Shown here piece by piece: positions 22,748-64,000 of a stretch of DNA of 64,000 nt. A model generated the notes under the pieces. The model saw only the letters and a list, made by a program, of their open reading frames with translations, was not told the origin of the DNA and did not search any database. The number at the start of each line of letters is the position of its first letter. Within the stretch, counting starts at the first letter, position 1. Source of the stretch: Siphonodentalium dalli (taxonomy: Eukaryota > Mollusca > Scaphopoda > Gadilida > Siphonodentaliidae); assembly GCA_032622095.1 (NCBI GenBank), contig CP136062.1, positions 8,211,710 to 8,275,709 on the forward strand. The letters are read 5' to 3'. The position numbers were made by a program, and so were the translations under genes.

Positions 22748-25700
22748 GAAGTTAATTTCTCACTGTTTCATGACTATATAAAGCAAAACAAGCGATAAAT
22801 CCATAAGATTATTTTGTTGTCATGTAGGTGCTGGGTGGGGGGGGGGGGAGATATCCTGACCAAAACCTGACTCAAAAAACTTGTTCTCAGAAGAAGTTAA
22901 TTTCTCGCTGTTTCATGACTATAAAGCAAAACAAGCGATAAAACCATAAGATTATTTGTTTGTCATGTAGGGTGCTGGGTGAAGGGGGGGAGATATCCTG
23001 ACCTGGACATCCCCCCACCCCAAAACCTGACTCAAAAAACTTGTTCTCAGAAGAAGTTAATTTCTCGCTGTTTCATGACTATATAAAGCAAAACAAGCGA
23101 TAAAACCATAAGATTATTTTTTGTCATGTATATCCTGACCTGGACATCTTCCCCCCACCCCAAACCCTGACTCAAAAAACTTGTTCTCAGAAGAAGTTAA
23201 TTTCTCGCTGTTTCATGACTATATAAAGCAAAACAAGCAATAAAACCATAAGATTATTTTTTTGTCATGTAGGTTGCTGGGTGAGGGGGAAGGGGAGATA
23301 TCCTGACCTGGACATTTCCCCCCCCCCCCACCCCAAACCCTGACTAAAAAAACTTGTTCTCAGAAGAAGTTAATTTCTCGCTGTTTCATGACTATATAAA
23401 GCAACACAAGTGATAAAACCATATTATTTTTTTGTCATGAAGGTGCTGGGTGGGGGGGGGAGATATCCTGACCTGGACATCTTCCCCTCGCCCCATCCCA
23501 AACCCTGACTCAAAAAACTTGTTCTCAGAAGAAGTTAATTTCTCGCTGTTTCATGACTATGTAAAGCAAAACAAACGATAAAACCATAAGATTATTTTTT
23601 TGTCATGTAGATCCTGACCTGGACATCTCCCCCCACCCCAAACCCTGACTCAAAAAACTTGTTCTCAGAAGAAGTTAATTTCTCGCTGTTTCATGACTAT
23701 ATAAAGCAAAACAAGCAATAAAACCATAAGATTATTTTTTTGTCATGTAGGTTGCTGGGTGAGGGGGGGGGAGATATCCTGACCTGGACATCCCCCCCAC
23801 CCCAAACCCTGACTAAAAAAACTTGTTCTCAGAAGAAGTTAATTTCTCGCTGTTTCATGACTATATAAAGCAAAACAAGTGATAAAACCATATTATTTTT
23901 TTGTCATGTAGGTGCTGGGTGGGGGGGGGGGGAGATATCATGACCTACCTGGACATCTTCCCCTCTCCCCATCCCAAACCCTGACTCAAAAAACTTGTTC
24001 TCAGAAGAAGTTAATTTCTCGCTGTTTCATGACTATATAAAGCAAAACAAGCGATAAAACCATAAGATTATTTTTTTGTCGTGTAGATCCTGACCTGGAC
24101 ATCTTCCCCCCACCCCAAACCCTGACTCAAAAAACTTGTTCTCAGAAGAAGTTCATTTCTCGCTGTTTCATGACTATATAAAGCAAAACAAGCAATAAAA
24201 CCATAAGATTATTTTTTTGTCATGTAGATCCTGACCTGGACATCTTCCCCCACCCCAAACCCTGACTCAAAAAAATTGTGCTCAGAAGAAGTTAATTTCT
24301 CGCTGTTTCATGACTATATAAAGCAAAACAAGCGATAAAACCATAAGATTATTTTTTTGTCATGTAGATCCTGACCTGGACACCTTCCCCCACCCCAAAC
24401 CCTGACTCAAAAAAATTGTGCTCAGAAGAAGTTAATTTCTCGCTGTTTCATGACTATATAAAGCAAAACAAGCGATAAAACCATAAGATTATTTTTTTGT
24501 CATGTAGATCCTGACCTGGACATATTCCCCCCACCCCAAACCCTGACTCAAAAAACTTTTTCTCAGAAGAAGTTCATTCGCTGTTTCATGACTATATAAA
24601 GCAAAACAAGCAATAAAACCATAAGATTATTTTTTGTCATGTAGGTTGCTGGGTGGGGGGGGGAGATATCCTGACCTGGACACTCCCCCCCCCACCCCAA
24701 ACCCTGACTAAAAAAACTTGTTCTCAGAAGAAGTTAATTTCTCGCTGTTTCATGACTATATAAAGCAAAACAAGCGATAAAACCATAAGATTATTTTTTT
24801 GTCATGTAGATCCTGACCTGGACATCTTCCCCCCACCCCAAACCCTGACTCAAAAAACTTGTTCTCAGAAGAAGTTAATTTCTCGCTGTTTCATGACTAT
24901 ATAAAGCAAAACAAGCAATAAAACCATAAGATTATTTTTTTGTCATGTAGGTTGCTGGGTGAGGTGGGGGGGGGAGATATCCTGACCTGTACATCCCCCC
25001 ACCCCAAACCCTGACTCAAAAAACTTGTTCTCAGAAGAAGTTAATTTCTCGCTGTTTCGTGACTATATAAAGCAAAACAAGCGATAAAACCATAAGATTA
25101 TTTTTTTGTCATGTAGATCCTGACCTGGACATCTTCCCCCCACCCCAAACCCTGACTCAAAAAACTTGTTCGCAGAAGAAGTTAATTTCTCGCTGTTTCA
25201 TGACTATATAAAGCAAAACAAGCAATAAAACCATAAGATTATTTTTTTGTCATGTAGGTTGCTGGGTGAGGGGGGGGGGAGATATCCTGACCTGGACATT
25301 TCCCCCCCCCACCCCAAACCCTGACTAAACAAACTTGTTCTCAGAAGAAGTTAATTTCTCGCTGTTTCATGACTATATAAAGCAAAACAAGTGATAAAAC
25401 CATATTATTTTTTTGTCATGTAGGTGCTGGGTGGGGGGGGGAGATATCCTGACCTGGACATCTTCCCCTCCCCCCATCCCAAACCCTGACTCAAAAAACT
25501 TGTTCTCAGAAGAAGTTAATTTCTCGCTGTTTCATGACTATATAAAGCAAAACAAGCGATAAAACCATAAGATTATTTTTTTGTCATGTAGATCCTGACC
25601 TGGACATCTTCCCCCACCCCAAACCCTGACTCAAAAAACTTGTGCTCAGAAGAAGTTAATTTCTCGCTGTTTCATGACTATATAAAGCAAAACAAGCGAT

Positions 25701-28700
25701 AAAACCATAAGATTTTTCTTTGTCATGTAGGTGCTGGGGGGGGGGAGATATCCTGACCTGGACATCTTCCCCCCACCCCAAACCCTGACTCAAAAAACTT
25801 GTGCTCAGAAGAAGTTAATTTCTCGCTGTTTCATGACTATATAAAGCAAAACAAGCGATAAAACCATAAGATTTTTCTTTGTCATGTAGGTGCTGGGGGG
25901 GGGGGGGAGATATCCTGACCTGGACATCTTCCCCCCACCACAAACCCTGACTCAAAAAACTTGTGCTCAGAAGAAGTTCATTTCTCGCTGTTTCATGACT
26001 ATATAATGCAAAACAAGCAATAAAACCATAAGATTATTGTTTTGTTATGTAGGTTGCTGGGTGAGGGGGGAGATATCCTGACCTGGACATCCCCCACCCC
26101 AAACCCTGACTCAAAAAACTTGTTCTCAGAAGAAGTTAATTTCTCGCTGTTTCATGACTATATAAAGCAAAACAAGCGATAAAACCATATTATTTTTTTG
26201 TCATGTAGATCCTGACCTGGACATCTTCCCCTCCCCCCATCCCAAACCCTGACTCAAAAAACTTGTTCTCAGAAGAAGTTAATTTCTCGCTGTTTCATGA
26301 CTATATAAAGCAAAACAAGCGATAAAACCATAAGATATTTTGTTGTCATGTAGATCCTGTCCTGGACATCTTCCCCCCACCCCAAACCCTGACTCAAAAA
26401 ACTTGTTCTCAGAAGAAGTTAATTTCTCGCTGTTTCATGACTATATAAAGCAAAACAAGCAATAAAACCATAAGATTATTTTTTGTCATGTAGGTGCTGG
26501 GTGGGGGGGGGTGATATCCTGACCTGGACATCCCCCCACCCCAAACCCTGACTCAAAAAACTTGTTCTCAGAAGAAGTTATTTTCTCGCTGTTTCATGAC
26601 TATATAAAGCAAAACAAGCAATAAAACCATAAGATTATTTTTTGTCATGTAGGTGCTGGGTGGGGTGGGTGGAAGATATCCTGACCTGGACATCCCCCCC
26701 ACCCCAAACCCTGACTCAAAAAACTTGTGCTCAGAAGAAGTAAATTTCTCGCTGTTTTCATGACTATATAAAGCAAAACAAGCAATAAAACCATAAGATT
26801 ATTTTTGTCATGTAGATCCTGACCTGGACATCTTCCCCCCACCCCAAACAAACCCTGACTCAAAAAACTTGTTCTCAGAAGAAGTTAATTTCTCGCTGTT
26901 TCATGACTATATAAAGCAAAACAAGCGATAAATCCATAAGATTATTTTGTTGTCATGTAGGTGCTGGGTCGGGGGGGGGGGAGATATCCTGACCTGGACA
27001 TCTCCCCCCCCCCCCACCCACCCCAAACCCTGACTCAAAAAACTTGTTCTCAGAAGAAGTTAATTTCTCGCTGTTTCATGACTATATAAAGCAAAACAAG
27101 CAATAAAACCATAAGATTATTTTTTTGTCATGTAGGTTGCTGGGTGAGGGGGGGGGGAGATATCCTGACCTGGACATTTCCCCCCCCCCCACCCCAAACC
27201 CTGACTAAAAAAACTTGTTCTCAGAAGAAGTTAATTTCTCGCTGTTTCATGACTATATAAAGCAAAACAAGTGATAAAACCATATTATTTTTTTGTCATG
27301 TAGGTGCTGGGTGGGGGGGGGATATCCTGTCCTGGACATCTTCCCCTCCCCCCATCCCAAACCCTGACTCAAAAAACTTGTTCTCAGAAGAAGTTAATTT
27401 CTCGCTGTTTCATGACTATATAAAGCAAAACAAGCGATAAAACCATAAGATTATTTTTTTGTCATGTAGATCCTGACCTGGACATCTTCCCCCCACCCCA
27501 AACCCTGACTCAAAAAACTTGTGCTCAGAAGAAGATAATTTCTCGCTGTTTCATGACTATATAAAGCAAAACAAGCGATAAAACCATAAGATTATGTTTT
27601 TGTCATGTAGATCCTGACCTGGACATCTTCCCCCCACCCCAAACCCTGACTCAAAAAACTTGTTCTCAGAAGAAGTTCATTTCTCGCTGTTTCATGACTA
27701 TATAAAGCAAAACAAGCAATAAAACCATAAGATTATTTTTTTGCATGTAGGTTGCTGGGTGAGGGGGGAGATATCCTGACCTGGACATCCCCCCACCCCA
27801 AACCCTGACTCAAAAAACTTGTTGTCAGAAGAAGTTAATTTCTCGCTGTTTCATGACTATATAAAGCAAAACAAGCGATAAAACCATAAGATTATTTTTT
27901 TGTCATGTAGATCCTGACCTGGACATCCCCCCCCCCCACCCCAAACCCTGACTCAAAAAACTTGTTCTCAGAAGAAGTTAATTTCTCGCTGTTTCATGAC
28001 TATATAAAGCAAAACAAGTGATAAAACCATATTATTTTTTTGTCATGTAGGTGCTGGGTGGGGGTCCTGACATGGACATCTTCCCCTCCCCCCATCCCAA
28101 ACCCTGACTCAAAAAACTTGTTCTCAGAAGAAGTTAATTTCTCGCTGTTTCATGACTATATAAAGCAAAACAAGCGATAAAACCATAAGATTATTTTGTT
28201 GTCATGTAGATCCTGACCTGGACATCTTCCCCCCACCCCAAACCCTGACTCAAAAAACTTGTTCTCAGAAGAAGTTAATTTCTCGCTGTTTCATGACTAT
28301 ATAAAGCAAAACAAGCAATAAAACCATAAGATTATTTTTTGTCATGTAGGTGCTGGGTGGGGGGGGGGGAGATATCCTGACCTGGACATCTTCCCCTCCC
28401 CCCACCCCAAACCCTGACTCAAAAAACATGTGCTCAGAAGAAGTTAATTTCTCGCTGTTTCATGACTATATAAAGCAAAACAAGCAATAAAACCATAAGA
28501 TTATTTTTTGTCATGTAGGTGCTGGGTCGGGGGGGGGGGTGGAGATATCCTGACCTGGACATCTTCCCCTCCCCCCACCCCAAACCCTGACTCAAAAAAC
28601 TTGTGCTCAGAAGAAGTTAATTTCTCGCTGTTTCATGACTATATAAAGCAAAACAAGCAATAAAACCATAAGATTATTTTTGTCATGTAGATCCTGACCT

Positions 28701-31595
28701 GGACATCTTCCCCCCACCCCAAACCCTGACTCAAAAAACTTGTTCTCAGAAGAAGTTAATTTCTCGCTGTTTCATGACTATATAAAGCAAAACAAGCGAT
28801 AAATCCATAAGATTATTTTGTTGTCATGTAGGTGCTGGGTCGGGGGGGGGGAGATATCCTGACCTGGACATCTTCCCCTCCCCCCACCCCAAACTCAGAC
28901 TCAAAAAACTTGTTCTCAGAAGAAGTTAATTTCTCGCTGTTTCATGACTATATAAAGCAAAACAAGCAATAAAACCATAAGATTATTTTTGTCATGTAGA
29001 TCCTGACCTGGACATCTTCCCCCCACCCCAAACCCTGACTCAAAAAACTTGTTCTCAGAAGAAGTTAATTTCTCGCTGTTTCATGACTATATAAAGCAAA
29101 ACAAGCGATAAAACCATAAGATTATTTTTTTGTCATGTAGATCCTATTCTGGACATCTTCCCCCCACCCTAAACCCTGACTCAAAAAACTTGTGCTCAGA
29201 AGAAGTTAATTTCTCGCTGTTTCATGACTATATAAAGCAAAACAAGCGATAAAACCATAAGATTATTTTTTTGTCATGTAGGTGCTGGGTGGGGAGGGGG
29301 GAGATATCCTGACCTGGACATCTTCCCCCCCACCCCAAACCCTGACTCAAAAAACTTGTTCTCAGAAGAAGTTTATTTCTCGCTGTTTCATGACTATATA
29401 AAGCAAAACAAGCGATAAAACCATAAGATTATTTTTTTGTCATGTAGGTGCTGGGTCGGGGGGGGGGGGGAGATATCATGACCTGGACATTCCCCCCCCC
29501 CACCCCAAACCGTGACTCAAAAAACTTGTTCTCAGAAGAAGTTAATTTCTCGCTGTTTCATGACTATATAAAGCAAAACAAGCAATAAAACCATAAGATT
29601 ATTTTTTGTCATGTAGGTGCTGGGTGGGGGGGGGAGATATCCTGACCTGGACATCTTCCCCTCCCCCCACCCCAAACCCTGACTCAAAAAACTTGTGCTC
29701 AGAAGAAGTTAATTTCTCGCTGTTTCATGACTATATAAAGCAAAACAAGCAATAAAACCATAAGATTATTTTTTGTCATGTAGGTGCTGGGTCGGGGGGG
29801 GAGATATCCTGACCTGGACATCTTCCCCTCCCCCCACCCCAAACCCTGACTCAAAAAACTTGTGCTCAGAAGAAGTTAATTTCTCGCTGTTTCATGACTA
29901 TATAAAGCAAAACAAGCAATAAAACCATAAGATTATTTTTGTCATGTAGATCCTGACCTGGACATCTTCCCCCCACCCCAAACCCTGACTCAAAAAACTT
30001 GTTCTCAGAAGAAGTTAATTTCTCGCTGTTTCATGACTATATAAAGCAAAAACAAGCGATAAATCCATAAGATTATTTTGTTGTCATGTAGGTGCTGGGT
30101 CGGGGGGGGGGGCATATCCTGACCTGGACATCTTCCCCTCCCCCCACCCCAAACTCAGACTCAAAAAACTTGTTCTCAGAAGAAGTTAATTTCTCGCTGT
30201 TTCATGACTATATAAAGCAAAACAAGCAATAAAACCATAAGATTATTTTTGTCATGTAGATCCTGACCTGGACATCTTCCCCCCACCCCAAACCCTGACT
30301 CAAAAAACTTGTTCTCAGAAGAAGTTAATTTCTCGCTGTTTCATGACTATATAAAGCAAAACAAGCGATAAAACCATAAGATTATTTTTTTGTCATGTAG
30401 ATCCTATTCTGGACATCTTCCCCCCACCCTAAACCCTGACTCAAAAAACTTGTGCTCAGAAGAAGTTAATTTCTCGCTGTTTCATGACTATATAAAGCAA
30501 AACAAGCGATAAAACCATAAGATTATTTTTTTGTCATGTAGGTGCTGGGTGGGGAGGGGGGAGATATCCTGACCTGGACATCTTCCCCCCACCCCAAACC
30601 CTGACTCAAAAAACTTGTTCTCAGAAGAAGTTTATTTCTCGCTGTTTCATGACTATATAAAGCAAAACAAGCGATAAAACCATAAGATTATTTTTTTGTC
30701 ATGTAGGTGCTGGGTCGGGGGGGGGGAGATATCATGACCTGGACATTCCCCCCCCCCCCACCCCAAACCCTGACTCAAAAAACTTGTTCTCAGAAGAAGT
30801 TAATTTCTCGCTGTTTCATGACTATATAAAGCAAAACAAGTGATAAAACCATATTATTTTTTGTCATGTAGGTGCTGGGTGGGGGGGGGGGAGATATCCT
30901 GACCTGGAGATCTTCCCCTCCCCACCCCAAACTCTGACTCAAAAAACTTGTTCTCAGAAGAAGTTAATTTCTCGCTGTTTCATGACTATATAAACCAAAA
31001 CAAGCAATAAAACCATAATATTATTTTTTTGTCATGTAGGTGCTGGGTGAGGGGGGATATATCCTGACCTGGACATTTCCCCCCCCCCCCCCCCCACCCC
31101 AAACCCTGACTCAAAAAACTTGTTCTCAGAAGAAGTTAATTTCTCGCTGTTTCATGACTATATAAAGCAAAACAAGCGATAAAACCGTAAGATTATTTTT
31201 TTGTCATGTAGATCCTGACCTGGACATCTTCCCCCACCCCAAACCCTGACTCAAAAAACTTGTGCTCAGAAGAAGTTAATTTCTCGCTGTTTCATGACTA
31301 TATAAAGCAAAACAAGCGATAAAACCATAAGATTTTGTTTTGTCATGTAGGTGCTGGGTGGGGAGGGGGGATATCCTGACCTGGACATCTTCCCCCCACC
31401 CCAAACCCTGACTCAAAAAAACTTGTTCTCAGAAGAAGTTTATTTCTCGCTGTTTCATGACTATATAAAGCAAAACAAGCGATAAAACCATAAGATTATT
31501 TTTTTGTCATGTAGGTGCTGGGTCGGGGGGGCAGATATCCTGACCTGGACATCTTCCCCCCACCCCAAACCCTGACTCAAAAAACTTGTTCTCAG
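22748..31595 (+). repeat. main satellite array, 135-165-bp units
   Basis: About 60 head-to-tail units. Order in the unit: AAACCCTGACTCAAAAAACT, TGTTCTCAGAAGAAGTTAAT, TTCTCGCTGTTTCATGACTA, TATAAAGCAAAACAAGCGAT, AAAACCATAAGATTATTTTT, TTGTCATGTAG. Long units (about 160-165 bp) then have GTGCTGGGTG, a run of 7-14 G, AGATATCCTGACCTGGACAT, and a C-run with CACCCC. Short units (about 135 bp) lack the GTGCTGGGT/G-run piece and go straight from GTAG to ATCCTGACC. Homology between copies is very high, so the array has been homogenised recently. Confidence 0.95.
28880..31400 (+). repeat. 1,260-bp higher-order duplication in satellite
   Basis: Rare variants recur exactly 1,260 bp apart: AAACTCAGACTC at 28891 and 30151, and ATCCTATTCTGGACATC at 29141 and 30401, with the same order of long and short units between them. 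The limits of the duplicated blocks are approximate. Confidence 0.85.
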
Positions 31596-45943: not shown

Positions 45944-47043
45944 TCACTCGAATCCTATCCATCCGGGATAGAAGTAGTCCAACATATCTGAACTAAACGC
46001 CTTTCGTAGTCTCGACCCGGCTTTGGACGGATATCGATAATACGTCACCATTCCACCGGCCAGAAACCCAGTCCACCAGCTGAAACTACCTACGCTGGTT
46101 ACAGTATGATTACACAAAGTCATTATGGCCATATCCACTTCCGCGGGATTATTTTTTTCTATGATATACATATTTTCCTTCATTATGTTCTTCTTCACCC
46201 AATTCTTACTATTACTAGATACTACGAACACCATGTTTTTAAAGAACTTTTTCAGAAATTTCGTTGCCATATCGAAATACTCTTTGGGAGCAACTAGATA
46301 TCCAGACGCGTGGTTAACCATATCACCGCGGCGAACATGTACTGCTACGAACGTCGTTTCAGAGGGATTATGTTTTCCCACTAATGCAGAGAACTGTTTC
46401 CTGGCCTCAGCCTGAATATTGTCGGTAAACACAAACTGTTTTCTTATATCCTTTTCTGCGTGTCGAAAATACTTCCAAGATTGCAAATACTGTTCTAACC
46501 GGACGCTTTCTTTTCCATTGATATTAGCAATATTCGAACTATATGAGCATGCTTGCTGTTCACCAACGACCTTGAACTTCCCACAAGGGCCCCTGCCGTC
46601 TTGTTTCTCCGCCGATAAGTTTTTGAACACTTTGTTTAGCAAACCTTTTGAGTCCACTATACAGGACATATTCTTAAGCTGACTCATTCCGTAGACAGCG
46701 GCGTAACCGAACATCCGGTTTCCAATTCCCCCCTTTTCTGTTGTGCATGTGTAATACTTCTGCGCAGTCTTCGGTGTCGTACTGGGCTGCTTTTGTTCAG
46801 TAGATGTCTGTTGTGTGAGATTATTGGTCTTGCTTGTAGTTGCGGGCGCAACATTGGATGCTAGTGGTCGCAAAGTAGAGGTGTTAGTGTTCGAAGCTGA
46901 ATCATTGCTGATAACAACTTGACTTATAACAGTGCCAACTGATTTAACAGTACTCCACGGAAGTCGTATTTGATAATTATTTGTCGAGAGTGTCGTGATG
47001 GTGAAATACACAAAGACGAAGCAGACTGTGACGATAATGAGTC
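45944..47043 (-). CDS. alpha-1,2-fucosyltransferase (GT11), last coding exon
   Basis: Transfers fucose from GDP-fucose to terminal galactose in alpha-1,2 linkage in the Golgi (FUT1/FUT2 family). Read from 47043 the exon gives a hydrophobic anchor LIIVTVCFVFVYFTI, then a Ser/Thr-rich stem of about 85 residues, then the catalytic domain. Counting from Val at 47011: GGIGNRMFGYAA (94-105), QYLQSWKYF (174-182), donor-site motif VAVHVRRGD (222-230), VVSSNSKNW (263-271), EVDMAIMTLCNHTVTSVGSF (291-310) with WWTGFLAGG, and YFYPGWIGF (346-354) before TGA at 45944-45946. Sequons include NLT 64, NMS 114, NLS 131 and NHT 301. There is no in-frame Met before residue 100, which lies inside the first motif, and a stop (47069-47071) lies upstream. 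The start must therefore come from an upstream exon. The acceptor is ATTTCAG|GA at 47044/47043, phase 1. All family motifs are intact; likely functional if the upstream exon exists. Exact acceptor specificity cannot be told from sequence. Confidence 0.9.
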
Positions 47044-47081
47044 CTGAAATAGAAGCGGAGGCGCATTTTCAGTGATGGTGT
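47044..47081 (-). promoter_or_regulatory. 3' splice site of the fucosyltransferase exon
   Basis: Minus strand: ATCACTGAAAATGCGCCTCC, then GCTTCTATTTCAG, then exon GACTC. It has a pyrimidine-rich tract and TTTCAG|G; a branch-like ACTGAAA lies about 28 nt upstream. It is itself the terminal, slightly diverged unit of the 52-bp array. Confidence 0.7.
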
Positions 47082-47682
47082 GGCGACAATGAGTCCTGAA
47101 ACAGAATATGAGTCGTATTATCATGGTGTGGCGATAATGAGTCCTGAAACAGAAGAGGAGGCGTAGTATCAGTAATGGTGTGGCGATAATGAGTCCTGAA
47201 ACAGAAGAGGAGGCGCATTTTCAGTGATGGTGTGGCGACAATGAGTCCTGAAACAGAATATGAGTCGTATTATCATGGTGTGGCGATAATGAGTCCTGAA
47301 ACAGAAGAGGAGGCGCATTATCAGTAATGATGTGGCGACAATGGGTCAAGAAACAGGAGAGGAGACGTATTATCAGTAATGATGTGGCGATAATGAGTCC
47401 TGACACAGGAGAGGAGGCGTATTATCAGTAATGATGTGGCGACAATGAGTCCTGGCACAGGAGAGGAGGCGTATTATCAGTAATCGTGTGGCGATAATGA
47501 GTCCTGACACAAGAGAGGAGGCGTATTATCAGTAATGATGTGGCGACAATGAGTCCTGAAACAGAATATGAGTCGTATTATCATGGTGTGGCGATAATGA
47601 GTCCTGCAACAGAAGAGGAGGCGTAGTATCAGTAATGGTGTGGCGATAATGAGTCCTGAAACAGAAGAGGAGGCGCATTTTC

Positions 47683-49600
47683 GGTGATGATATGGCGATA
47701 ATGAGTCCTGAAACAGAATATGAGTCGTATTGTCATTGTGTGGCAATAATGAGTCCTGACACAGGAGAGGAGGCGTATTATCAGTAATGATGTGGCGACA
47801 ATGAGTCATGAAACAGGAGAGGAGGCGTATTATCAGTAATGATGTGGCGATAATGAGTCCAGACACAGGAGAGGAGGCGTATTATCAGTAATGATGTGGC
47901 GACAATGAGTCCTGACACAGGAGAGGAGGCGTATTATCAGTAATCGTGTGGCGATAATGAGTCCTGACACAAGAGAGGAGGCGTATTATCAGTAATGATG
48001 TGGCGACAATGAGTCCTGAAACAGAATATGAGTCGTATTATCATTGTGTGGCGATAATGAGTCCTGACACAGGAGAGGAGGCGTATTATCAGTAATGATG
48101 TGGCGACAATGAGTCCTGAAACAGAATATGAGTCGTATTGTCATTGTGTGGCGATAATGAGTCCTGACACAGGAGAGGAGGCGTATTATCAGTAATGATG
48201 TGGCGATAATGAGTCCTGACACAGGAGAGGAGGCGTATTATCAGTAATGATGTGGCGATAATGAGTCCTGACACAGGAGAGGAGGAGTATTATCAGTAAT
48301 GATGTGCCGACAATGAGTCCTGAAACAGAATATGAGTCGTATTGTCATTGTGTGGCGATAATGAGTCCTGACACAGGAGAGGAGGCGTAGTATCAGTAAT
48401 CGTGTGGCGATAAAGAGTCCTGACACAAGAGAGGAGGCGTATTATCAGTAATGATGTGGCGACAATGAGTCCTAAAACAGAATATGAGTCGTATTATCAT
48501 TGTGTGGCGATAATGAGTCCTGAGACAGGAGAGGAGGCGTAGTATCAGTAATGGTGTGGCGATAATGAGTCATGAAACCGGAGAGGAGGCGTATAATCAG
48601 TAATGGTGTGGCGATAATGAGTCCTGACACAGGAGAGGAGGCGTAGAATCAGTAATCGTGTGGCGATAATGAGTCATGAAACAGGAGAGGAGGCGTATTA
48701 TCAGTAATAATGTGGCGATAATGAGCCCTGACACAGGAGAGGAGGCGTATTATCAGTAATGATGTGGCGACAATGAGTCCTGACACAGGAGAGGAGGCGT
48801 ATTATCAGTAATCGTGTGGCGATAATGAGTCCTGACACAAGAGAGGAGGCGTATTATCAGTAATGATGTGGTGACAATGAGTCCTGAAACAGAATATGAG
48901 TCGTATTATCATGGTGTGGCGATAATGAGTCCTGAAACAGAAGAGGAGGCGTAGTATCAGTAATGGTGTGGCGATAATGAGTCCTGAAACAGAAGAGGAG
49001 GCGCATTTTCAGTGATGATATGGCGATAATGAGTCCTGAAACAGAATATGAGTCGTATTGTCATTGTGTGGCGATAATGAGTCCTGACACAGGAGAGGAG
49101 GCGTATTATCAGTAATGATGTGGCGACAATGAGTCATGAAACAGGAGAGGAGGCGTATTATCAGTAATGACATGTCGATAATGAGTCCAGACACAGGAGA
49201 GGAGGCGTATTATCAGTAATGATGTGGCGACAGTGAGTCCTGACACAGGAGAGGAGGCGTATTATCAGTAATCGTGTGGCGATAATGAGTCCTGACACAA
49301 GAGAGGAGGCGTATTATCAGTAATGATGTGGCGACAATGAGTCCTGAAACAGAATATGAGTCGTATTATCATTGTGTGGCGATAATGAGTCCTGACACAG
49401 GAGAGGAGGCGTATTATCAGTAATGATGTGGCGACAATGAGTCCTGAAACAGAATATGAGTCGTATTGTCATTGTGTGGCGATAATGGGTCCTGACACAG
49501 GAGAGGAGGCGTATTATCAGTAATGATGTGGCGATAATGAGTCCTGACACAGGAGAGGAGGAGTTTTATCAGTCATGATGTGCCGACAATGAGTCCTGAA
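47683..49600 (-). repeat. ~1.33-kb higher-order repeat in the 52-bp array
   Basis: The rare unit GTGATGATATGGCGATAATG occurs at 47683 and 49012 (offset 1,329 bp), followed by the same order of 48-bp and 52-bp variants, including GTGCCGACAATGAG units. Limits approximate. Confidence 0.75.
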
Positions 49601-51439
49601 ACAGAATATGAGTCGTATTGTCATTGTGTGGCGATAATGAGTCCTGACACAGGAGAGGAGGCGTAGTATCAGTAATGGTGTGGCGATAATGAGTCATGAA
49701 ACAGGAGAGGAGGCGTATTAGCAGTAATGGTGTGGCGATAATGAGTCCTGACACATGAGAGGAGGCGTAGTATCAGTAATCGTGTGGCGATAAAGAGTCC
49801 TGACACAAGAGAGGAGGCGTATTATCAGTAACGATGTGGCGACAATGAGTCCTAAAACAGAATATGAGTCGTATTATCATTGTGTGGCGATAATGAGTCC
49901 TGAGACAGGAGAGGAGGCGTAGTGTCAGTAATGGTGTGGCGATAATGAGTCATGAAACCGGAGAGGAGGCGTATTATCAGTAATGGTGTGGCGATAATGA
50001 GTCCTGACACAGGAGAGGAGGCGTAGTATCAGTAATCGTGTGGCGATAATGAGTCATGAAACAGGAGAGGATGCGTATTATCAGTAATGGTGTGGCGATA
50101 ATGAGACCTGACACAGGAGAGGAGGCGTAGTATCAGTAATCGTGTGGCGATTAAGAGTCCTGACACAAGAGAGGAGGCGTATTATCAGTAATGATGTGGC
50201 GACAATGAGTCCTAAAACAGAATATGAGTCGTATTATCATTGTGTGGCGATAATGAGTCCTGACACAGGAGAGGAGGCGTATTATCAGTAATGATGTGGC
50301 GACAATGAGTCCTGAAACAGAATATGAGTCGTATTGTCATTGTGTGGCGATAATGAGTCCTGAGACAGGAGAGGAGGCGTATTATCAGTAATGGTGTGGC
50401 GATAATGAGTCCTGACACAGGAGAGGAGGCGTATTATCAGTAATGATGTGGCGATAACGAGTCCTGACACAGGAGAGGAGGAGTATTATCAGTAATGATG
50501 TGCCGACAATGAGTCCTGAAACAGAATATGAGTCGTATTGTCATTGTGTGGCGATAATGAGTCCTGACACAGGAGAGGAGGCGTAGTATCAGTAATGGTG
50601 TGGCGATAATGAGTCATGACACAGGAGAGGAGGCGTATTATCAGTAATGGTGTGGCGATAATGAGTCCTGACACATGAGAGGAGGCGTAGTATCAGTAAT
50701 CGTGTGGCGATAAAGAGTCCTGACACAAGAGAGGAGGCGTATTATCAGTAATGATGTGGCGACAATGAGTCCTAAAACAGAATATGAGTCGTATTATCAT
50801 TGTGTGGCGATAATGAGTCCTGAGACAGGAGAGGAGGCGTAGTATCAGTAATGGTGTGGCGATAATGAGTCATGAAACCGGAGAGGAGGCGTATTATCAG
50901 TAATGTTGTGGCGATAATGAGTCCTGACACAGGAGAGGAGGCGTAGTATCACTAATCGTGTGGCGATAATGAGTCATGAAACAGGAGAGGAGGCGTATTA
51001 TCAGTAATGGTGTGGCGATAATGAGTCCTGACACAGGAGAGGAGGCGTAGTATCAGTAATCGTGTGGCGATAATGAGTCCTGACACAAGAGAGGAGGCGT
51101 ATTATCAGTAATGATGTGGCGACAATGAGTCCTAAAACAGAATATGAGTCGTATTGTCATTGTGTGGCGATTATTAGTCCTGACACAGGAGAGGAGGCGT
51201 AGTATCAGTAATGATGTGGCGACAATGAGTCCTGACACAGGAGAGGAGGCGTATTATCAGTAATGATGTGGCGATAATGAGTCCTGAGACAGGAGAGGAG
51301 GCGTATTATCAGTAATCGTGTGGCGATAATGAGTCCTGACACAGGAGAGGAGGCGTATTATCAGTAATGATGTGGCGGCAATGAGTCCTGAAACCGAATA
51401 TGAGTCGTATTGTCATTGTGTGGCGATTATGAGTCCTGA

Positions 51440-54400
51440 CACAGGAGAGGAGGCGTATTATCAGTAATGATGTGGCGATCATGAGTCATGAAACACGATA
51501 TGAATCGTATTATCATTGTGTGGCGATAATGAGTCCTGAAACATGAGAGGATGCGTATTATCAGTAATGGTGTGGCGATAATGAGTCCAGAAACATGAGA
51601 GGATGCGTATTATCAGTAATGGTGTGGCAATAATGAGTCCAGAAACATGAGAGGATGCGTATTATCAGTATTGGTGTGGCGATAGTGAGTCCTGCTTAGA
51701 AGAGGATGCGTATTATCAGTAATGATGTGGCGATAGTGAGTCCTGAAACATGAGCGGATGCGTATTATCAGTAATGTTGTGGCGATAATGAGTCCAGAAA
51801 CATGAGAGGATGCGTATTATCAGTAATGGTGTGGCGATAATGAGTCGAGAAACAGGAGAGGATGCGTATTATCAGTAATGGTGTGGCGATACTGAGTCCA
51901 GAAACATGAGAGGATGCGTATTATCAGTATTGTTGTGGCGATAATGAGTCCAGAAACATGAGAGGATGCGTATTATCAGTAATGGTGTGGCATTATTGAG
52001 TCATGAAACAGGAGAGGATGCGTATTATCAGTAATGCTGTGGCGATAGTGAGTCCAGAAACAGGAGAGTAGGCGTATTATCAGTAATGGTGTGGCGACAA
52101 TGAGTCCTGAAACATGAGAGGAGGCGTATTATCAGTAATGTTGTGGCGATAATGAGTCCTGAAACATGAGAGGAGGCGTATTATCAGTAATGTTGTGGCG
52201 ATAATGAGTCCTGAATAGAAGAGGATGCGTATTATCAGTAATGGTGTGGCGATAATGAGTCCTGAAACATGACAGGAGACGTATTATCAGTAATGTTGTG
52301 GCGATAATGAGTCCTGAATAGAAGAGGATGCGTATTATCAGTAATGGTGTGGCGATAATGAGTCCTGAAACATGAGAGGATGCGTATTATCAGTAATGGT
52401 GTGGCGATAATGAGTCCAGAAACATGAGAGGATGCGTATTATCAATAATGTTGTGGCGATAATGAGTCCAGAAACATGAGAGGATGCGTATTATCAGTAA
52501 TGATGTGGCGATAACGAGTCCTGACACAGGAGAGGAGGAGTATTATCAGTAATGATGTGCCGACAATGAGTCCTGAAACAGAATATGAGTCGTATTGTCA
52601 TTGTGTGGCGATAATGAGTCCTGACACAGGAGAGGAGGCGTAGTATCAGTAATGGTGTGGCGATAATGAGTCATGAAACAGGAGAGGAGGCGTATTATCA
52701 GTAATGGTGTGGCGATAATGAGTCCTGACACATGACAGGAGGCGTAGTATCAGTAATCGTGTGGCGATAAAGAGTCCTGACACAAGAGAGGAGGCGTATT
52801 ATCAGTAATGATGTGGCGACAATGAGTCCTAAAACAGAATATGAGTCGTATTATCATTGTGTGGCGATAATGAGTCCTGAGACAGGAGAGGAGGCGTAGT
52901 ATCAGTAATGGTGTGGCGATAATGAGTCATGAAACCGGAGAGGAGGCGTATTATCAGTAATGTTGTGGCGATAATGAGTCCTGACACAGGAGAGGAGGCG
53001 TAGTATCAGTAATCGTGTGGCGATAATGAGTCCTGACACAAGAGAGGAGGCGTATTATCAGTAATGATGTGGCGACAATGAGTCCTAAAACAGAATATGA
53101 GTCGTATTGTCATTGTGTGGCGATTATGAGTCCTGACACAGGAGAGGAGGCGTAGTATCAGTAATGATGTGGCGACAATGAGTCCTGACACAGGAGAGGA
53201 GGCGTATTATCAGTAATGCTGTGGCGATAATGAGTCCTGAGACAGGAGAGGAGGCGTATTATCAGTAATCGTGTGGCGATAATGAGTCCTGACACAGGAG
53301 AGGAGGCGTATTATCAGTAATGATGTGGTGGCAATGAGTCCTGAAACCGAATATGAGTCGTATTGTCATTGTGTGGCGATTATGAGTCCTGACACAGGAG
53401 AGGAGGCGTATTATCAGTAATGATGTGGCGATCATGAGTCATGAAACACGATATGAATCGTATTATCATTGTGTGGCGATAATGAGTCCTGAAACATGAG
53501 AGGATGCGTATTATCAGTAATGGTGTGGCGATAATGAGTCCTGAAACATGAGAGGATGCGTATTATCAGTAATGGTGTGGCGATAACGAGTCATGAAACA
53601 GGAGAGGAGGCGTATTATCAGTAATGGTGTGGCGATAATGAGTCCTGACACATGAGAGGAGGCGTAGTATCAGTAATCGTGTGGCGATAAAGAGTCCTGA
53701 CACAAGAGAGGAGGCGTATTATCAGTAATGATGTGGCGACAATGAGTCCTAAAACAGAATATGAGTCGTATTATCATTGTGTGGCGATAATGAGTCCTGA
53801 GACAGGAGAGGAGGCGTAGTATCAGTAATGGTGTGGCGATAATGAGTCATGAAACCTGAGAGGAGGCGTATTATCAGTAATGTTGTGGCGATAATGAGTC
53901 CTGACACAGGAGAGGAGGCGTAGTATCAGTAATCGTGTGGCGGTAATGAGTCCTGACACAAGAGAGGAGGCGTATTATCAGTAATGATGTGGCGACAATG
54001 AGTCCTAAAACAGAATATGAGTCGTATTGTCATTGTGTGGCGATTATGAGTCCTGTCACAGGAGAGGAGGCGTAGTATCAGTAATGATGTGGCGACAATG
54101 AGTCCTGACACAGGAGAGGAGGCGTATTATCAGTAATGATGTGGCGATAATGCGTCCTGAGACAGGAGAGGAGGCGTATTATCAGTAATCGTGTGGCGAT
54201 AATGAGTCCTGACACAGGAGAGGAGGCGTATTATCAGTAATGATGTGGCGGCAATGAGTCCTGAAACCGAATATGAGTCGTATTGTCATTGTGTGGCGAT
54301 TATGAGTCCTGACACAGGAGAGGAGGCGTATTATCAGTAATGATGTGGCGATCATGAGTCATGAAACACGATATGAATCGTATTATCATTGTGTGGCGAT

Positions 54401-54500
54401 AATGAGTCCTGAAACATGAGAGGATGCGTATTATCAGTAATGGTGTGGCGATAATAAGTCCTGAAACATGAGAGGATGCGTATTATCAGTAATGGTGTGG
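51440..54500 (-). repeat. ~1.95-kb and ~0.92-kb higher-order copies
   Basis: The marker GATCATGAGTCATGAAACAC, then GATATGAATCG, occurs at about 51478, 53430 and 54350 (offsets 1,953 and 920 bp), each followed by a change from GAGGCG to GATGCG units. Confidence 0.8.
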
Positions 54501-55454
54501 CAATAATGAGTCCAGAAACATGAGAGGATGCGTATTATCAGTATTGGTGTGGCGATTGTGAGTCCTGCTTAGAAGAGGATGCGTATTATCAGTAATGATG
54601 TGGCAATAGTGAGTCCTGAAACATGAGCGGATGCGTATTATCAGTAATGTTGTGGCGATAATGAGTCCAGAAACATGAGAGGATGCGTATTATCAGTAAT
54701 GGTGTGGCGATAATGAGTCGAGAAACAGGAGAGGATGCGTATTATCAGTAATGGTGTGGCGATACTGAGTCCAGAAACATGAGAGGATGCGTATTATCAG
54801 TATTGTTGTGGCGATAATGAGTCCAGAAACATGAGAGGATGCGTATTATCAGTAATGGTGTGGCATTATTGAGTCATGAAACAGGAGAGGATGCGTATTA
54901 TCAGTAATGCTGTGGCGATAGTGAGTCCAGAAACAGGAGAGTAGGCGTATTATCAGTAATGGTGTGGCGACAATGAGTCCTGAAACATGAGAGGAGGCGT
55001 ATTATCAGTAATGTTGTGGCGATAATGAGTCCTGAAACATGAGAGGAGGCGTATTATCAGTAATGTTGTGGCGATAATGAGTCGTGAATAGAAGAGGATG
55101 CGTATTATCAGTAATGGTGTGGCGATAATGAGTCCTGAAACATGACAGGAGGCGTATTATCAGTAATGTTGTGGCGATAATGAGTCCTGAATAGAAGAGG
55201 ATGCGTATTATCAGTAATGGTGTGGCGATAATGAGTCCTGAAACATGAGAGGATGCGTATTATCAGTAATGGTGTGGCGATAATGAGTCCAGAAACATGA
55301 GAGGATGCGTATTATCAGTAATATTGTGGCGATAATGAGTCCAGAAACATGAGAGGATGCGTATTATCAGTAATGGTTTGGCATTAATGAGTCATGAAAC
55401 AGGAGAGGATGCGTATTATCAGTAATGCGGTGGCGATAATGAGTCCAGAAACAG

Positions 55455-58400
55455 GAGAGGAGGATAATTATCAGTAATGGTGTGGCGACAATGAGTCCTG
55501 AAACATGACAGGAGGCGTATTATCAGTAATGTTGTGGCGATAATGAGTCCTGAATAGAAGAGAATGCGTATTATCAGTAATGGTGTGGCGATAATGAGTC
55601 CTGAAACATGAGAGGATGCGTATTATCAGTAATGGTGTGGCGATAATGAGTCCAGAAACAGGAGAGGAGGATAATTATCAGTAATGGTGTGGCGACAATG
55701 AGTCCTGAAACATGAGAGGAGGCGTATTATCAGTAATGATGTGGCGATAATGAGTCCCGAAACATGAGAGGAGGCGTATTATCAGTAATGTTGTGGCGAT
55801 AATGAGTCCTGAATAGAAGAGGATGCGTATTATCAGTAATGTTGTGGCGATAATGAGTCCTGAAACATGAGAGGATGCGTATTATCAGTAATGGTGTGGC
55901 GATAATGAGTCCAGAAACAGGAGAGGATGCGTATTATCAGTAATGGTGTGGCGATAATGAGTCCTGAAACATGAGAGGATGCGTATTATCAGTAATGGTG
56001 TGGCGATAATGAGTCCTGAAACATGAGAGGATGCGTATTATCAGTAATGGTGTGGCGATAATGAGTCCTGAAACATGACAGGAGGCGTATTATCAGTAAT
56101 GGTGTGGCGATAATGTGTCCTGAAACATGAGAGGATGCGTATTATCAGTAACGATGTGGAGATAATGAGTCCTGAATAGAAGAGGATGCGTATTATCAGT
56201 AATTATGTGGCGATAGTGAGTCCTGCATAGAAGAGGATGCGTATTATCAGTAATGGTGTGGCATTAATGAGTCATGAAACATGAGAGGATGCGTATTATC
56301 AGTAATGTTGTGGCGATAATGAGACCTGAAACATGAGAGGATGCGTATTATCAGTAACGGTGTGGCGATAATGAGCCCAGAAACATGAAAGGATGCGTAT
56401 TATCAGTAATGATGTGGCGACAATGAGTCCTGAATAGGAGAGGATGCGTATTATCAGTAACGGTGTGGCGATAATGAGTCCTGAAACATGACAGGAGGCG
56501 TATTATCAGTAATGGTGTGGCGATAATGTGTCCTGAAACATGAGAGGATGCGTATTATCAGTAATGGTGTGGCGATAATGAGTCCTGAAACATGAGAGGA
56601 TGCGTTTTATCAGTAATGGTGTGGCGATAATGAGTCCTGAAACATGAGAGGATGCGTATTATCAGTAATGGTGTGGCGATAATGAGTCCTGAAACATGAG
56701 AGGATGCGTATTATCAGTAATTATGTGGCGATAATGAGTCCTGAAACATGAGCGGGTTCGTATTACCAGTAATGGTGTGGCGATAATGAGTCCTGAAACA
56801 TGAGGGGATGCGTATTATCAGTAATGATGTGGCGATAATGAGTCCTGAAACATGAGAGGAGGCGTATTATCAGTAATGGTGTGTCGATAATGAGTCCTGA
56901 AACATGAGAGGATGCGTATTATCAGTAATGGTGTGGCGATAATGAGTCCTGAATAGAAGAGGATGCGTATTATCAGTAATTATGTGGCGATAGTGAGTCC
57001 TGCATAGAAGAGGATGCGTATTATCAGTAATGGTGTGGCATTAATGAGTCATGAAACATGAGAGGATGCGTATTATCAGTAATGTTGTGGCGATAATGAG
57101 ACCTGAAACATGAGAGGATGCGTATTATCAGTAATGGTGTGGCGATAATGAGCCCAGAAACATGAGAGGATGCGTATTATCAGTAATGATGTGGCGATAA
57201 TGAGTCCTGAAACATGAGAGGATGCGTATTATCAGTAATGGTGTGGCGATAATGAGTCCTGAAACATGAGAGGATGCGTATTATCAGTAATGGTGTGGCG
57301 ATAATGAGTCCTGAAACATGAGATGATGCGTATTATCAGTAATGGTGTGGCGACAATGAGTCCTGAATAGGAGAGGATGCGTATTATCAGTAACGGTGTG
57401 GCGATAATGAGTCCTAAAACATGAGAGGAGGCGTATTATCAGTAATGGTGTGGCGATAATGAGTCCTGAAACATGAGAGGATGCGTATTATCAGTAATGG
57501 TGTGGCGATAATGAGTCCTGAAACATGAGAGGATGCGTATTATCAGTAACGGTGTGGCGATAATGAGTCCTGAAACATGAGAGGAGGCGTATTATCAGTA
57601 ATGGTGTGGCGATAATGAGTCCTGAAACATGAGAGGAGGCGTATTATCAGTAATGGTGTGGCGATAATGAGTCCTGAAACATGAGAGGATGCGTATTATC
57701 AGTAATGGTGTGGCGATAATGAGTCCTGAAACATGAGAGGATGCGTATTATCAGTAATGGTGTGGCGATAATGAGTCCTGAAACATGAGAGGATGCGTAT
57801 TATCAGTAATGATGTGGCGATTATGAGTCCTGAAACATGAGAGGATGCGTATTATCAGTAATGGTGTGGCGATAATGAGTCCTGAAACATGAGGGGATGC
57901 GTATTATCAGTAATGATGTGGCGATAATGAGTCCTGAAACATGAGAGGAGGCGTATTATCCATAATGGTGTGTCGATAATGAGTCCTGAAACATGAGAGG
58001 ATGCGTATTATCAGTAATGATGTGGCGATAATGAGTCCTGAATAGGAGAGGATGCGTATTATCAGTAATGGTGTGGCGATAATGAGTCCTGAAACATGAG
58101 AGGATGCGTATTATCAGTAATGGTGTGGCGATAATGAGTCCTGAAACATGAGAGGATGCGTATTATCAGTAATGGTGTGGCGATAATGAGTCCTGAAACA
58201 TGAGAGGATGCGTATTATCAGTAATGGTGTGGCGATAATGAGTCCTGAAACATATTATCAGTAACGGTGTGGCGATAATGAGTCCTGAAACATGAGAGGA
58301 TGCGTATTATCAGTAATGGTGTGGCGATAATGAGTCCTGAAACATGAGCGGATGCGTATTATCAGTAATGGTGTGGCGATAATGAGTCATGAAACATGAG

Positions 58401-61400
58401 AGGATGCGTATTATCAGTAATGGTGTGGCGATAATGAGTCCTGAAACATGAGAGGATGCGTATTATCAGTAACGGTGTGGCGATAATGAGTCCTGAAACA
58501 TGAGAGGATGCGTATTATCAGTAATGGTGTGGCAATAATGAGTCCTGAAACATGAGAGGATGCGTATTATCAGTAATGGAGTGGCGATAATGAGCCCAGA
58601 AACAGGAGAGGATGCGTATTATCAGTAATGTTGTGGCGATAATGAGTCCAGAACAAGAGAGGAGGCGTATTATCAGAAATGATGTGGCGATATGAGTCCT
58701 GAAACAGGATATGAGTCGTATTATCAGTAATGGTGTGGCGATAATGAGTCCTGAAGTAGAAGAGGATGCGTATTATCAGTAATGATGTGGCGATAATGAG
58801 TCCTGAAACATGAGAGGATGCGTATTATCAGTAATGGTGTGGCGACACTGAGTCCAGAACATGAGAGGAGGCGTATTATCAGTAATTGTGTGGCGATAAT
58901 GAGTCCTGAAACATGAGAGGATGCGTATTATCAGTAATGGTGTGGCGATAATGAGTCCTGAATAGGAGAGGTTGCGTATTATCAGTAATGGTGTGGCGAA
59001 AATGAGTCCTGAATAGGAGAGGATGCGTATTATCAGTAATGGTGTGGCGATAATGAGTCCTGAATAGAAGAGGAGGCGTATTATCAGTAATGGTGCGGCG
59101 ATAATGAGTCCTGAATAGGAGAGGAGGCGTATTATCAGTAATGGTGTGGCGATAATGAGTCCTGAAACATGAGAGGATACGTATTATCAGTAATGGTGTG
59201 GCGATAATGAGTCCTGAAACATGAGAGGATGCGTATTATCAGTAATGTTGTGGCAATACTGAGTCCTGAAACATGAGAGAGGATGCGTATTATTAGTACT
59301 GGTGTGGCGATAATGCGTCCTGAAACATGAGAGGAGGCGTATTATCAGTAATGGTGTGGCGATAATGAGTCCTGAAACATGAGAGGATGCGTATTATCAG
59401 TAATGTTGTGGCAATAATGAGTCCTGAAACATGAGAGGGTGCGTATTATCAGTGATGTTGTGGCAATAATGAGTCCTGAATAGGAGAGGATGCGTATTAT
59501 CATGGTGCGGCGATAATGAGTCCTGAAACAGGATATGAGTCGTATTATCAGTAATGGTGTGGCGATTATGAGTCCTGAATAGGAGTGGAGGCGTATTATC
59601 AGTAATGGTGTGGCGATAATGAGCCCAGAAACAGGAGAGGATGTGTATTATCAGTAATGGTGTGGCGATAATGAGTCCTGAAACATGAGAGGATGCGTAT
59701 TATTAGTAATGGTGTGGCGATAATGAGTCCTGAATAGAAGAGGATGCGTATTATCAGTAATGGAGTGGCGATAATGAGTCCTGAATAGGAGAGGTTGCGT
59801 ATTATCAGTAATGTTGTGGCGATAATGAGCCCAGAAACAGGAGAGGAGGCGTATTATCAGTAATGATGTGGCGATAATGAGCCCAGAAACAGGAGAGGAG
59901 GCGTATTATCAGTAATGGTGTGGCGATAATGAGTACTGAATAGGAGAGGATGCGTATTATCAGTAATGCTGTGGCGGTAATGAGCCCAGAAACAGGAGAG
60001 GAGGCGTATTACCAGTAATGGTGTGGCGATAATGATTCCTGAAACATGAGAGGATGCGTATTATCAGAAATGGTGTGGCGACAATGAGTCCTGAAACACG
60101 AGAGGAGGCGTATTATTAGTAATGGTGTGGCGATAATGAGTCCTGAAACATGAGAGGATGCGTATTATCAGAAATGGTGTGGCGACAATGAGTCCTGAAA
60201 CATGAGAGGATGCGTATTATCAGTAATGATGCGGCGATAATGAGTCCTGAATAGGAGAGGATGCGTATTATCAGTAATGGTGTGGCGATAATGAGTCCAG
60301 AAACAGGAGAGGAGGATAATTATCAGTAATGGTGTGGAGACAATGAGTCCTGAAACATGACAGGAGGCGTATTATCAGTAATGTTGTGGCGATAATGAGT
60401 CCTGAATAGAAGAGGATGCGTATTATCAGTAATGGTGTGGCGATAATGAGTCCTGAAACATGAGAGGATGCGTATTATCAGTAATGGTGTGGCGATAATG
60501 AGTCCAGAAACAGGAGAGGAGGATAATTATCAGTAATGGTGTGGCGACAATGAGTCCTGAAACATGAGAGGAGGCGTGTTATCAGTAATGATGTGGCGAT
60601 AATGAGTCCCGAAACATGAGAGGAGGCGTATTATCAGTAATGTTGTGGCGATAATGAGTCCTGAATAGAAGAGGATGCGTATTATCAGTAATGTTGTGGC
60701 GATAATGAGTCCTGAAACATGAGAGGATGCGTATTATCAGTAATGGTGTGGCGATAATGAGTCCAGAAACAGGAGAGGATGCGTATTATCAGTAATGGTG
60801 TGGCGATAATGAGTCCTGAAACATGAGAGGATGCGTATTATCAGTAATGGTGTGGCGATAATGAGTCCTGAAACATGAGAGGATGCGTATTATCAGTAAT
60901 GGTGTGGCGATAATGAGTCCTGAAACATGAGAGGATGCGTATTATCAGTAATGGTGTGGCGACAATGAGTCCTGAATAGAAGAGGATGCGTATTATCAGT
61001 AATTATGGGGCGATAATGAGTCCTGAAACATGAGAGGATGCGTATTATCAGTAACGATGTGGAGATAATGAGTCCTGAATAGAAGAGGATGCGTATTATC
61101 AGTAATTATGTGGCGATAGTGAGTCCTGCATAGAAGAGGATGCGTATTATCAGTAATGGTGTGGCATTAATGAGTCATGAAACATGAGAGGATGCGTATT
61201 ATCAGTAATGTTGTGGCGATAATGAGACCTGAAACATGAGAGGATGCGTATTATCAGTAACGGTGTGGCGATAATGAGCCCAGAAACATGAGAGGATGCG
61301 TATTATCAGTAATGATGTGGCGACAATGAGTCCTGAATAGGAGAGGATGCGTATTATCAGTAACGGTGTGGCGATAATGAGTCCTGAAACATGACAGGAG

Positions 61401-63990
61401 GCGTATTATCAGTAATGGTGTGGCGATAATGTGTCCTGAAACATGAGAGGATGCGTATTATCAGTAATGGTGTGGCGATAATGAGTCCTGAAACATGAGA
61501 GGATGCGTATTATCAGTAATGGTGTGGCGATAATGAGTCCTGAAACATGAGAGGATGCGTGTTATCAGTAATGGTGTGGCGATTATGAGTCCTGAAACAT
61601 GAGAGGATGCGTATTATCAGTAATGGTGTGGCGATAATGAGCCCAGAAACATGAGAGGATGCGTATTATCAGTAATGATGTGGCGACAATGAGTCCTGAA
61701 ACATGAGAGGATGCGTATTGTCAGTAATGGTGTGGCGATAATGAGTCCTGAAACATGAGAGGATGCGTATTATCAGTAATTATGTGGCGATAATGAGTCC
61801 TGAAACATGAGCGGGTGCGTATTACCAGTAATGGTGTGGCGATAATGAGTCCTGAAACATGAGGGGATGCGTATTATCAGTAATGATGTGGCGATAATGA
61901 GTCCTGAAACATGAGAGGAGGCGTATTATCAGTAATGGTGTGTCGATAATGAGTCCTGAAACATGAGAGGATGCGTATTATCAGTAATGGTGTGGCGATA
62001 ATGAGTCCTGAATAGAAGAGGATACGTATTATCAGTAATTATGTGGCGATAGTGAGTCCTGCATAGAAGAGGATGCGTATTATCAGTAATGGTGTGGCAT
62101 TAATGAGTCATGAAACATGAGAGGATGCGTATTATCAGTAATGTTGTGGCGATAATGAGACCTGAAACATGAGAGGATGCGTATTATCAGTAATGGTGTG
62201 GCGATAATGAGCCCAGAAACATGAGAGGATGCGTATTATCAGTAATGATGTGGCGATAATGAGTCCTGAAACATGAGAGGATGCGTATTATCAGTAATGG
62301 TGTGGCGATAATGAGTCCTGAAACATGAGAGGATGCGTATCATCAGTAATGGTGTGGCGATAATGAGTCCTGAAACATGAGATGATGCGTATTATCAGTA
62401 ATGGTGTGGCGACAATGAGTTCTGAATAGGAGAGGATGCGTATTATCAGTAACGGTGTGACGATAATGAGTCCTGAAACATGAGAGGAGGCGTATTATCA
62501 GTAATGGTGTGGCGATAATGAGTCCTGAAACATGAGAGGATGCGTATTATCAGTAATGGTGTGGCGATAATGAGTCCTGAAACATGAGAGGATGCGTATT
62601 ATCAGTAACGATGTGGCGAGAATGAGTCCTGAAACATGAGAGGAGGCGTATTATCAGTAATGGTGTGGCGATAATGAGTCCTGAAACATGAGAGGAGGCG
62701 TATTATCAGTAATGGTGTGGCGATAATGAGTCCTGAAACATGAGAGGATGCGTATTATCAGTAATGGTGTGGCGATAATGAGTCCTGAAACATGAGAGGA
62801 TGCGTATTATCAGTAATGGTGTGGCGATAATGAGTCCTGAAACATGAGAGGATGCGTATTATCAGTAATGATGTGGCGATTATGAGTCCTGAAACATGAG
62901 AGGATGCGTATTATCAGTAATGGTGTGGCGATAATGAGTCCTGAAACATGAGGGGATGCGTATTATCAGTAATGATGTGGCGATAATGAGTCCTGAAACA
63001 TGAGAGGAGGCGTATTATCCATAATGGTGTGTCGATAATGAGTCCTGAAACATGAGAGGATGCGTATTATCAGTAATGATGTGGCGATATTGAGTCCTGA
63101 ATAGGAGAGGATGCGTATTATCAGTAATGGTGTGGCGATAATGAGTCCTGAAACATGAGAGGATGCGTATTATCAGTAATGGTGTGGCGATAATGAGTCC
63201 TGAAACATGAGAGGATGCGTATTATCAGTAATGGTGTGGCGATAATGAGTCCTGAAACATGAGAGGATGCGTATTATCAGTAACGGTGTGGCGATAATGA
63301 GTCCTGAAACATGAGAGGATGCGTATTATCAGTAATGGTGTGGCGATAATGAGTCCTGAAACATGAGAGGATGCGTATTATCAGTAATGGTGTGGCGATA
63401 ATGAGTCAGGAAACATGAGAGGATGCGTATTATCAGTAATGGTGTGGCGATAATGAGTCCTGAAACATGAGAGGATGCGTATTATCAGTAATGGTGTGGC
63501 GATAATGAGTCCTGAAACATGAGAGGATGCGTATTATCAGTAATGGTGTGGCAATAATGAGTCCTGAAACATGAGAGGATGCGTATTATCAGTAACGGTG
63601 TGGCGATAATGAGCCCAGAAACAGGAGAGGATGCGTATTATCAGTAATGTTGTGGCGATAATGAGTCCAGAACAGGAGAGGAGGCGTATTATCAGTAATG
63701 ATGTGGCGATATGAGTCCTGAAACAGGATATGAGTCGTATTATCAGTAATGGTGTGGCGATAATGAGTCCTGAAGTAGAAGAGGATGCGTATTATCAGTA
63801 ATGATGTGGCGATAATGAGTCCTGAAACATGAGAGGATGCGTATTATCAGTAATGGTGTGGCGACACTGAGTCCAGAACATGAGAGGAGGCGTATTATCA
63901 GTAATTGTGTGGCGATATTGAGTCCTGAAACATGAGAGGATGCGTATTATCAGTAATGGTGTGGCGATAATGAGTCCTGAATAGGAGAGG
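55455..63990 (-). repeat. ~4.85-5.0-kb segmental duplication in the 52-bp array
   Basis: The rare unit with AGGATAATTATCAGTAATGG is at 55461 and 55668, and again at 60313 and 60520, offset exactly 4,852 bp. The marker GGCGATATGAGTCCTGAAAC is near 58688 and 63707, offset 5,019 bp. The drift of 167 bp is about three units, so unit gains or losses followed the duplication. Confidence 0.85.
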
Positions 63991-64000
63991 ATGCGTATTA

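Follow-up and report, generated by a model that had tools for sequence, protein, structure and literature searches.

A 52-bp satellite resembling repeated copies of a 3' splice junction in inferred introns of a dispersed GT11 gene family of Siphonodentalium dalli

Upstream of closely related GT11 (Glyco_transf_11) coding exons, the genome of the scaphopod Siphonodentalium dalli contains tandem arrays of a 52-bp unit that resembles the 3' splice junction of these exons themselves. We consider it probable, with a rough probability of 0.7, that this repeat is a giant intronic boundary satellite, for which the GT11 3' splice junction was duplicated in the ancestor of the gene family and which has grown by unequal exchange or slippage. 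The window, i.e., the whole stretch of 64,000 nucleotides that was analyzed, contains one of these exons together with the adjoining part of its array (Table 1).

Table 1. Features of the GT11 locus in the window (a slash marks the exon boundary).
Feature	Position in the window	Strand	Evidence or remark
GT11 coding exon with stop codon	45944..47043	-	PF01531 match, ORF, hydropathy
AG of the inferred acceptor TCTATTTCAG/GACTC, phase 1	47044..47045	-	sequence, junction pattern, matrix score 9.41
Last repeat unit, bounds approximate; contains the acceptor and 17 nt of exon start	47027..47078	-	
52-bp satellite, head to tail	47027..64000	-	continues past the window edge toward the exon-1-like block at C2:8312850

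The satellite and its units

In the window the satellite forms a single array, for which TRF gives a period of 52, 329.8 copies and 88% matches. Read in the sense of the gene, the unit consists of a branch-point-like CTGAT, a pyrimidine stretch and TTTCAG, followed by 17 nt that match the start of the exon. The minus strand of the array carries 329 anchors, with 252 of the 328 anchor spacings being 52, as well as 281 copies of CTGAT, and a GTRAGT donor does not occur on it. These counts bear out the unit layout of the original prediction, which had described CTGAT, TTTCAG and a 17-nt match to the exon start without GTRAGT. The prediction had also claimed approximately 320 branch-point and acceptor modules; the array is indeed of this size, but complete modules number approximately 250, since about a fifth of the units lack the AG. 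It is kept in 256 of 324 aligned window units and, in a second count, in 255 of 323. In an alignment of 324 of the 327 units (three were dropped for their length), CTNAY is present within the first 20 nt in 309 units, and CTNAY and AG are both present in 246. The branch A lies 25 nt from the end of the AG in 187 of 289 branch-like motifs.

The strength of the units as acceptors was scored with an approximate 3' splice-site matrix of nucleotide frequencies, in which the median unit AG reaches 9.23 compared to 9.41 for the inferred acceptor of the gene. At least this unit median is reached by 160 AGs, while 50 first-order Markov resamples gave 6.9 ± 2.6 (maximum 15), so that the unit AGs score far better than resampled sequence, and by 1.9% of the 4451 AGs in the remainder of the window.

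Other features of the window include a 38-bp array of 47 copies (356-2157), a large tandem array with units of about 140–475 bp (22860-31595) and a neighboring ORF pair on the plus strand (7444-8690). The first ORF of this pair has a QRICH1 domain match below the cut-off and the second matches Phage_integrase (PF00589, E 5e-10) and DUF3504; we take the pair to be perhaps a Crypton-like remnant.

The GT11 exon and its acceptor

The ORF carrying the GT11 domain extends from 45944 to 47068 on the minus strand, and the PF01531 match in the exon reaches 121.3 bits (E 6.3e-35) compared to a cut-off of 23.9. The exon starts with a segment encoding a hydrophobic stretch (hydropathy 2.31 over 19 amino acids), ahead of which the ORF has no in-frame ATG, and therefore an upstream exon is required if the full protein is made. 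The prediction that the acceptor at 47044 would be formed by the last unit of the array is supported by the sequence.

The satellite among GT11 paralogs

A protein search of the genome gave 71 matches, among which 11 loci, including the window locus, show 88–100% identity; short fragments of the same GT11 loci were left out of this tally. The next best match reaches 61% identity or less. All 11 close exons are directly preceded by the array, in identical register. The junction pattern was found genome-wide at 45 places with up to three mismatches, and the 11 places with zero to two mismatches (zero in eight, one in one and two in two) are all at the close GT11 exons. The other 34 comprise 29 array units at the GT11 loci of C2, C4, C7, and C9 and five places on C6. 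A second fully listed satellite pattern has 68 matches, all of them at the GT11 loci of C2 and C9. A commoner pattern has 1375 matches, with positions taken from the first places listed only, and as this pattern is listed in part, further orphan satellite blocks may occur elsewhere in the genome. One orphan block of seven units, all with AG and without a GT11 exon, lies on C6 near 211513243-211513580.

The arrays differ widely in size. L011 has 14 units and L008 has 18, whereas the array at C2:4.58M measures about 3.5 kb, that of the window locus about 54 kb (5/5 probes at C2:8290000-8310000 and further pieces, with the array absent from 5/5 probes at C2:8320000-8400000) and that on C4 about 100 kb (7/7 probes, followed by 6/6 empty probes before the exon-1-like block described below). 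The long arrays were sampled by such probes rather than read through, and all pieces examined are free of N. Copy number thus differs between paralogs from 14 to an estimated thousand or more, the upper value being derived from length in one assembly.

Eight of the 11 exons are full length; in L013 and L012 the exon is broken after residues 299 and 320, respectively. Pairwise dN/dS among the eight full-length exons is 0.42–0.92 in 25 of 28 pairs, and in the remaining three, which have zero or one synonymous change each, it is above 1 in two and undefined in one; judged by these values, purifying selection on the GT11 exons is modest. None of the 11 exons contains a stop within its first 295 codons (245 for L011), compared to 8.3 stops expected without selection (P about 0.0003); the end point of this stretch, just ahead of the break in L013, favors the test. 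Internal gaps in the nucleotide alignment of the 11 exons measure 3, 6, 12, 18, and 165 nt, the only exception being a 1-nt gap where the alignment was cut.

The satellite is absent from all nine loci of distant GT11 paralogs. Five of these are readable at the corresponding place, and all five have a phase-1 AG directly before a hydrophobic segment, hydropathy being measured for L014–L017. This AG is a good acceptor-like site in L015 and in L016, which is identical to L018 there, and in L014 and L017 an in-frame ATG lies nearby and the acceptor is less clear. At the distant tandem paralog L079, 6.7 copies of TTAGGG were observed at 1660-1699, away from a contig end.

Origin of the array

Two orders of events had been envisaged in the original prediction, namely growth of the array from the intron-exon junction or adoption of a repeat unit as acceptor by the gene. 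The first is favored and the second ranks behind it, because the distant GT11 paralogs, being free of the satellite, have their phase-1 AG before the hydrophobic segment in the readable five of nine loci. For the second order, an existing 52-bp satellite would have landed in the intron and the gene would have taken one of its units as acceptor and exon start. The small block standing alone on C6 speaks for such an invasion, but the two fully listed searches place 40 of 45 matches (the other five at C6) and 68 of 68 at GT11 loci, and the distant paralogs have their AG and hydrophobic start at the matching place without any satellite, which leaves this order of events improbable. One variable site fits both orders equally: at the position TCG(T/C)CAC a T is found in 10 of the 11 exons and a C in 317 of the 327 window units, and T returns in the two most distal units at all five loci that have them, i.e., T stands at both ends of the array. 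The third distal unit has an A at this position in 7/7 loci, which counts against the favored origin.

The favored origin from the GT11 junction would proceed as follows. The ancestor of the close GT11 family would have duplicated its 3' splice junction in tandem, and as copies of the gene spread through the genome, the array would have gained and lost units by unequal exchange or slippage. In splicing, an upstream exon would be expected to be joined to the last unit, as the terminal coding exon follows the AG of this unit only. The last unit would be held nearly constant by selection on splicing and coding, and the other units would be passengers, possibly acting as weak competing acceptors.

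Fate of the unit acceptors

Of 988 units summed over the arrays, 742 retain the AG and 977 the branch A. Ranked from the least intact among 51 dinucleotides, the AG takes places 1 to 20 and falls within the first 11 in 11 of 12 samples from 11 arrays, which are not independent tests, because the arrays share ancestry and dead variants. At the level of sequence, this loss argues against selection for working decoys and would fit neglect or selection against competing AGs. The decoy or sponge role that had been suggested for the array, with units binding U2AF and U2 snRNP and slowing or regulating splicing in proportion to copy number, thus gains no positive support, the AG being lost in a quarter of the units and among the least intact dinucleotides. 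Such a role would be compatible with units that score as complete acceptors by the approximate matrix, with the nearly universal branch A and with the precedent of tandem-repeat RNA tied to PTBP1 and splicing control in one report (PMC6224606). However, not only the AG losses stand against it, but also the full-length exons that accompany short (18 units, L008) and long arrays (about 54 kb, window locus) alike, and we regard it as highly unlikely.

Selection might instead silence competing acceptors by destruction of their AGs, the branch point staying and the last AG being kept, in an intron tolerated since before the radiation of the family, so that splicing picks the AG of the terminal exon; this idea is doubtful.

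The upstream exon-1-like block

The flanks of several arrays have in common a conserved block ending in (G or T)AG/GTATGT or GAG/GTAAGT. With up to three mismatches it occurs at eight places in the genome, all upstream of these arrays and representing 7 of the 11 loci. The window locus has two copies, C2:8312850 and 8317379, which are 4.5 kb apart, the former 54.1 kb from the window acceptor. Donor and acceptor are separated by 2.3 to 144.4 kb, and some 44 kb of the longest distance are free of array. The block donor scores 8.1–11.6 and is the top donor in each of the seven sequences scanned. When L009 is compared with the C2 copies, 48 nt of the block contain two mismatches, and the surroundings are 76% identical over 1.5 kb. 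The array is placed in an inferred intron because of this block with its strong donor upstream at seven loci. Within three mismatches the block is missing at four loci including three of the eight full-length exons (L005, L008, and L010), and two of the seven loci with the block, L012 and L013, carry a broken exon. The block is also missing at C2:4.58M, where a flank with homology to the window locus is directly followed by the array; a deletion ending on one side within the array would produce such an arrangement. A lack of relationship between the distal flanks of the arrays was considered and rejected, as longer flanks are homologous.

The ATG of the block leads into phase 0 and the exon requires phase 1, in which a TAA ends 34 nt before the donor; moreover, in five of eight block copies a TAG at the donor closes the ATG frame. 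The block, having no in-frame ATG, may therefore be an untranslated exon of the 5' end, and one more exon may exist. A scan of two flanks for an ATG in phase 1 with a donor gave none, a phase-1 ATG exon common to all seven upstream sequences scanned was not found, and none was seen by eye between block and array. Two ORFs are weak candidates: the first, present in three of these seven sequences (W2, C9a, and C9b), stops at a donor of 4.6 bits, and the second, with a donor of 4.7 bits, is shared by B and W2, which are nearly identical. Single-locus candidates occur in L009 and C4. Upstream of L079 some short ATG frame is present at six of nine listed donors, none of them confirmed.

Alternatively, the array might not be intronic but 5' flanking sequence, or might serve spliced-leader trans-splicing as an acceptor region, with the block being unrelated, as its lack of an in-frame ATG and its absence at four loci might suggest. 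This is highly unlikely, since all places with the block within three mismatches are upstream of these arrays and the block is better conserved than its surroundings.

Comparison with known systems

The choice of the spliceosome among near-identical acceptors has mostly been studied with a few sites. The GT11 paralogs offer introns in which 14 to an estimated thousand or more copies surround nearly the same last acceptor, and therefore long-read cDNA could show directly how competing sites influence the choice of acceptor.

Satellites in the introns of Drosophila Y genes are simple repeats and are not known to derive from the splice junction of the gene itself. The likeness to these genes is that satellite DNA fills giant introns (PMC8248703), and the GT11 introns would likewise be very long. 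PNCTR is a short-tandem-repeat RNA that offers numerous sites to an RNA-binding protein acting in splicing; it is a noncoding RNA with a reported role (PMC6224606), whereas any role of the GT11 satellite would be hypothetical.

The closest relatives in design are the "mirage" minisatellites of the lancelet (amphioxus), tandem repeats across an intron-exon boundary in the globins BflGb6 and BflGb9 and in Adh3, with similar repeats in PGBD5 (PMC3087553; PMC3902484). They are a precedent for the GT11 satellite, and the suggestion in the original prediction, made ahead of any search, that such a design might be undescribed does not hold. The unit of BflGb6 consists of the 3' end of the intron and the 5' part of the next exon, many units have AG/GT signals, and two haplotypes contain six and three units of 150–160 bp; Adh3 units measure 10–72 bp, and RT-PCR suggests that regular splicing is undisturbed (PMC3087553). 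Like these mirages, the GT11 unit spans an intron-exon boundary, as its match to the junction indicates and with use of this boundary in RNA presumed, and many of its units carry splice signals according to AG counts and matrix scores. Furthermore, boundary units differ from the homogenized array, as reported for BflGb6, the distal units and the exon unit having T where the array has C. Unlike the mirages, the GT11 unit is 52 bp long, is present in 14 to an estimated thousand or more copies at 11 loci and is known here from DNA. A literature search, for which most subscription papers were out of reach, found no report of arrays of such length or of sharing across a family. New in comparison to the lancelet mirages are thus the scale of the arrays, their sharing across a dispersed gene family and their persistence.
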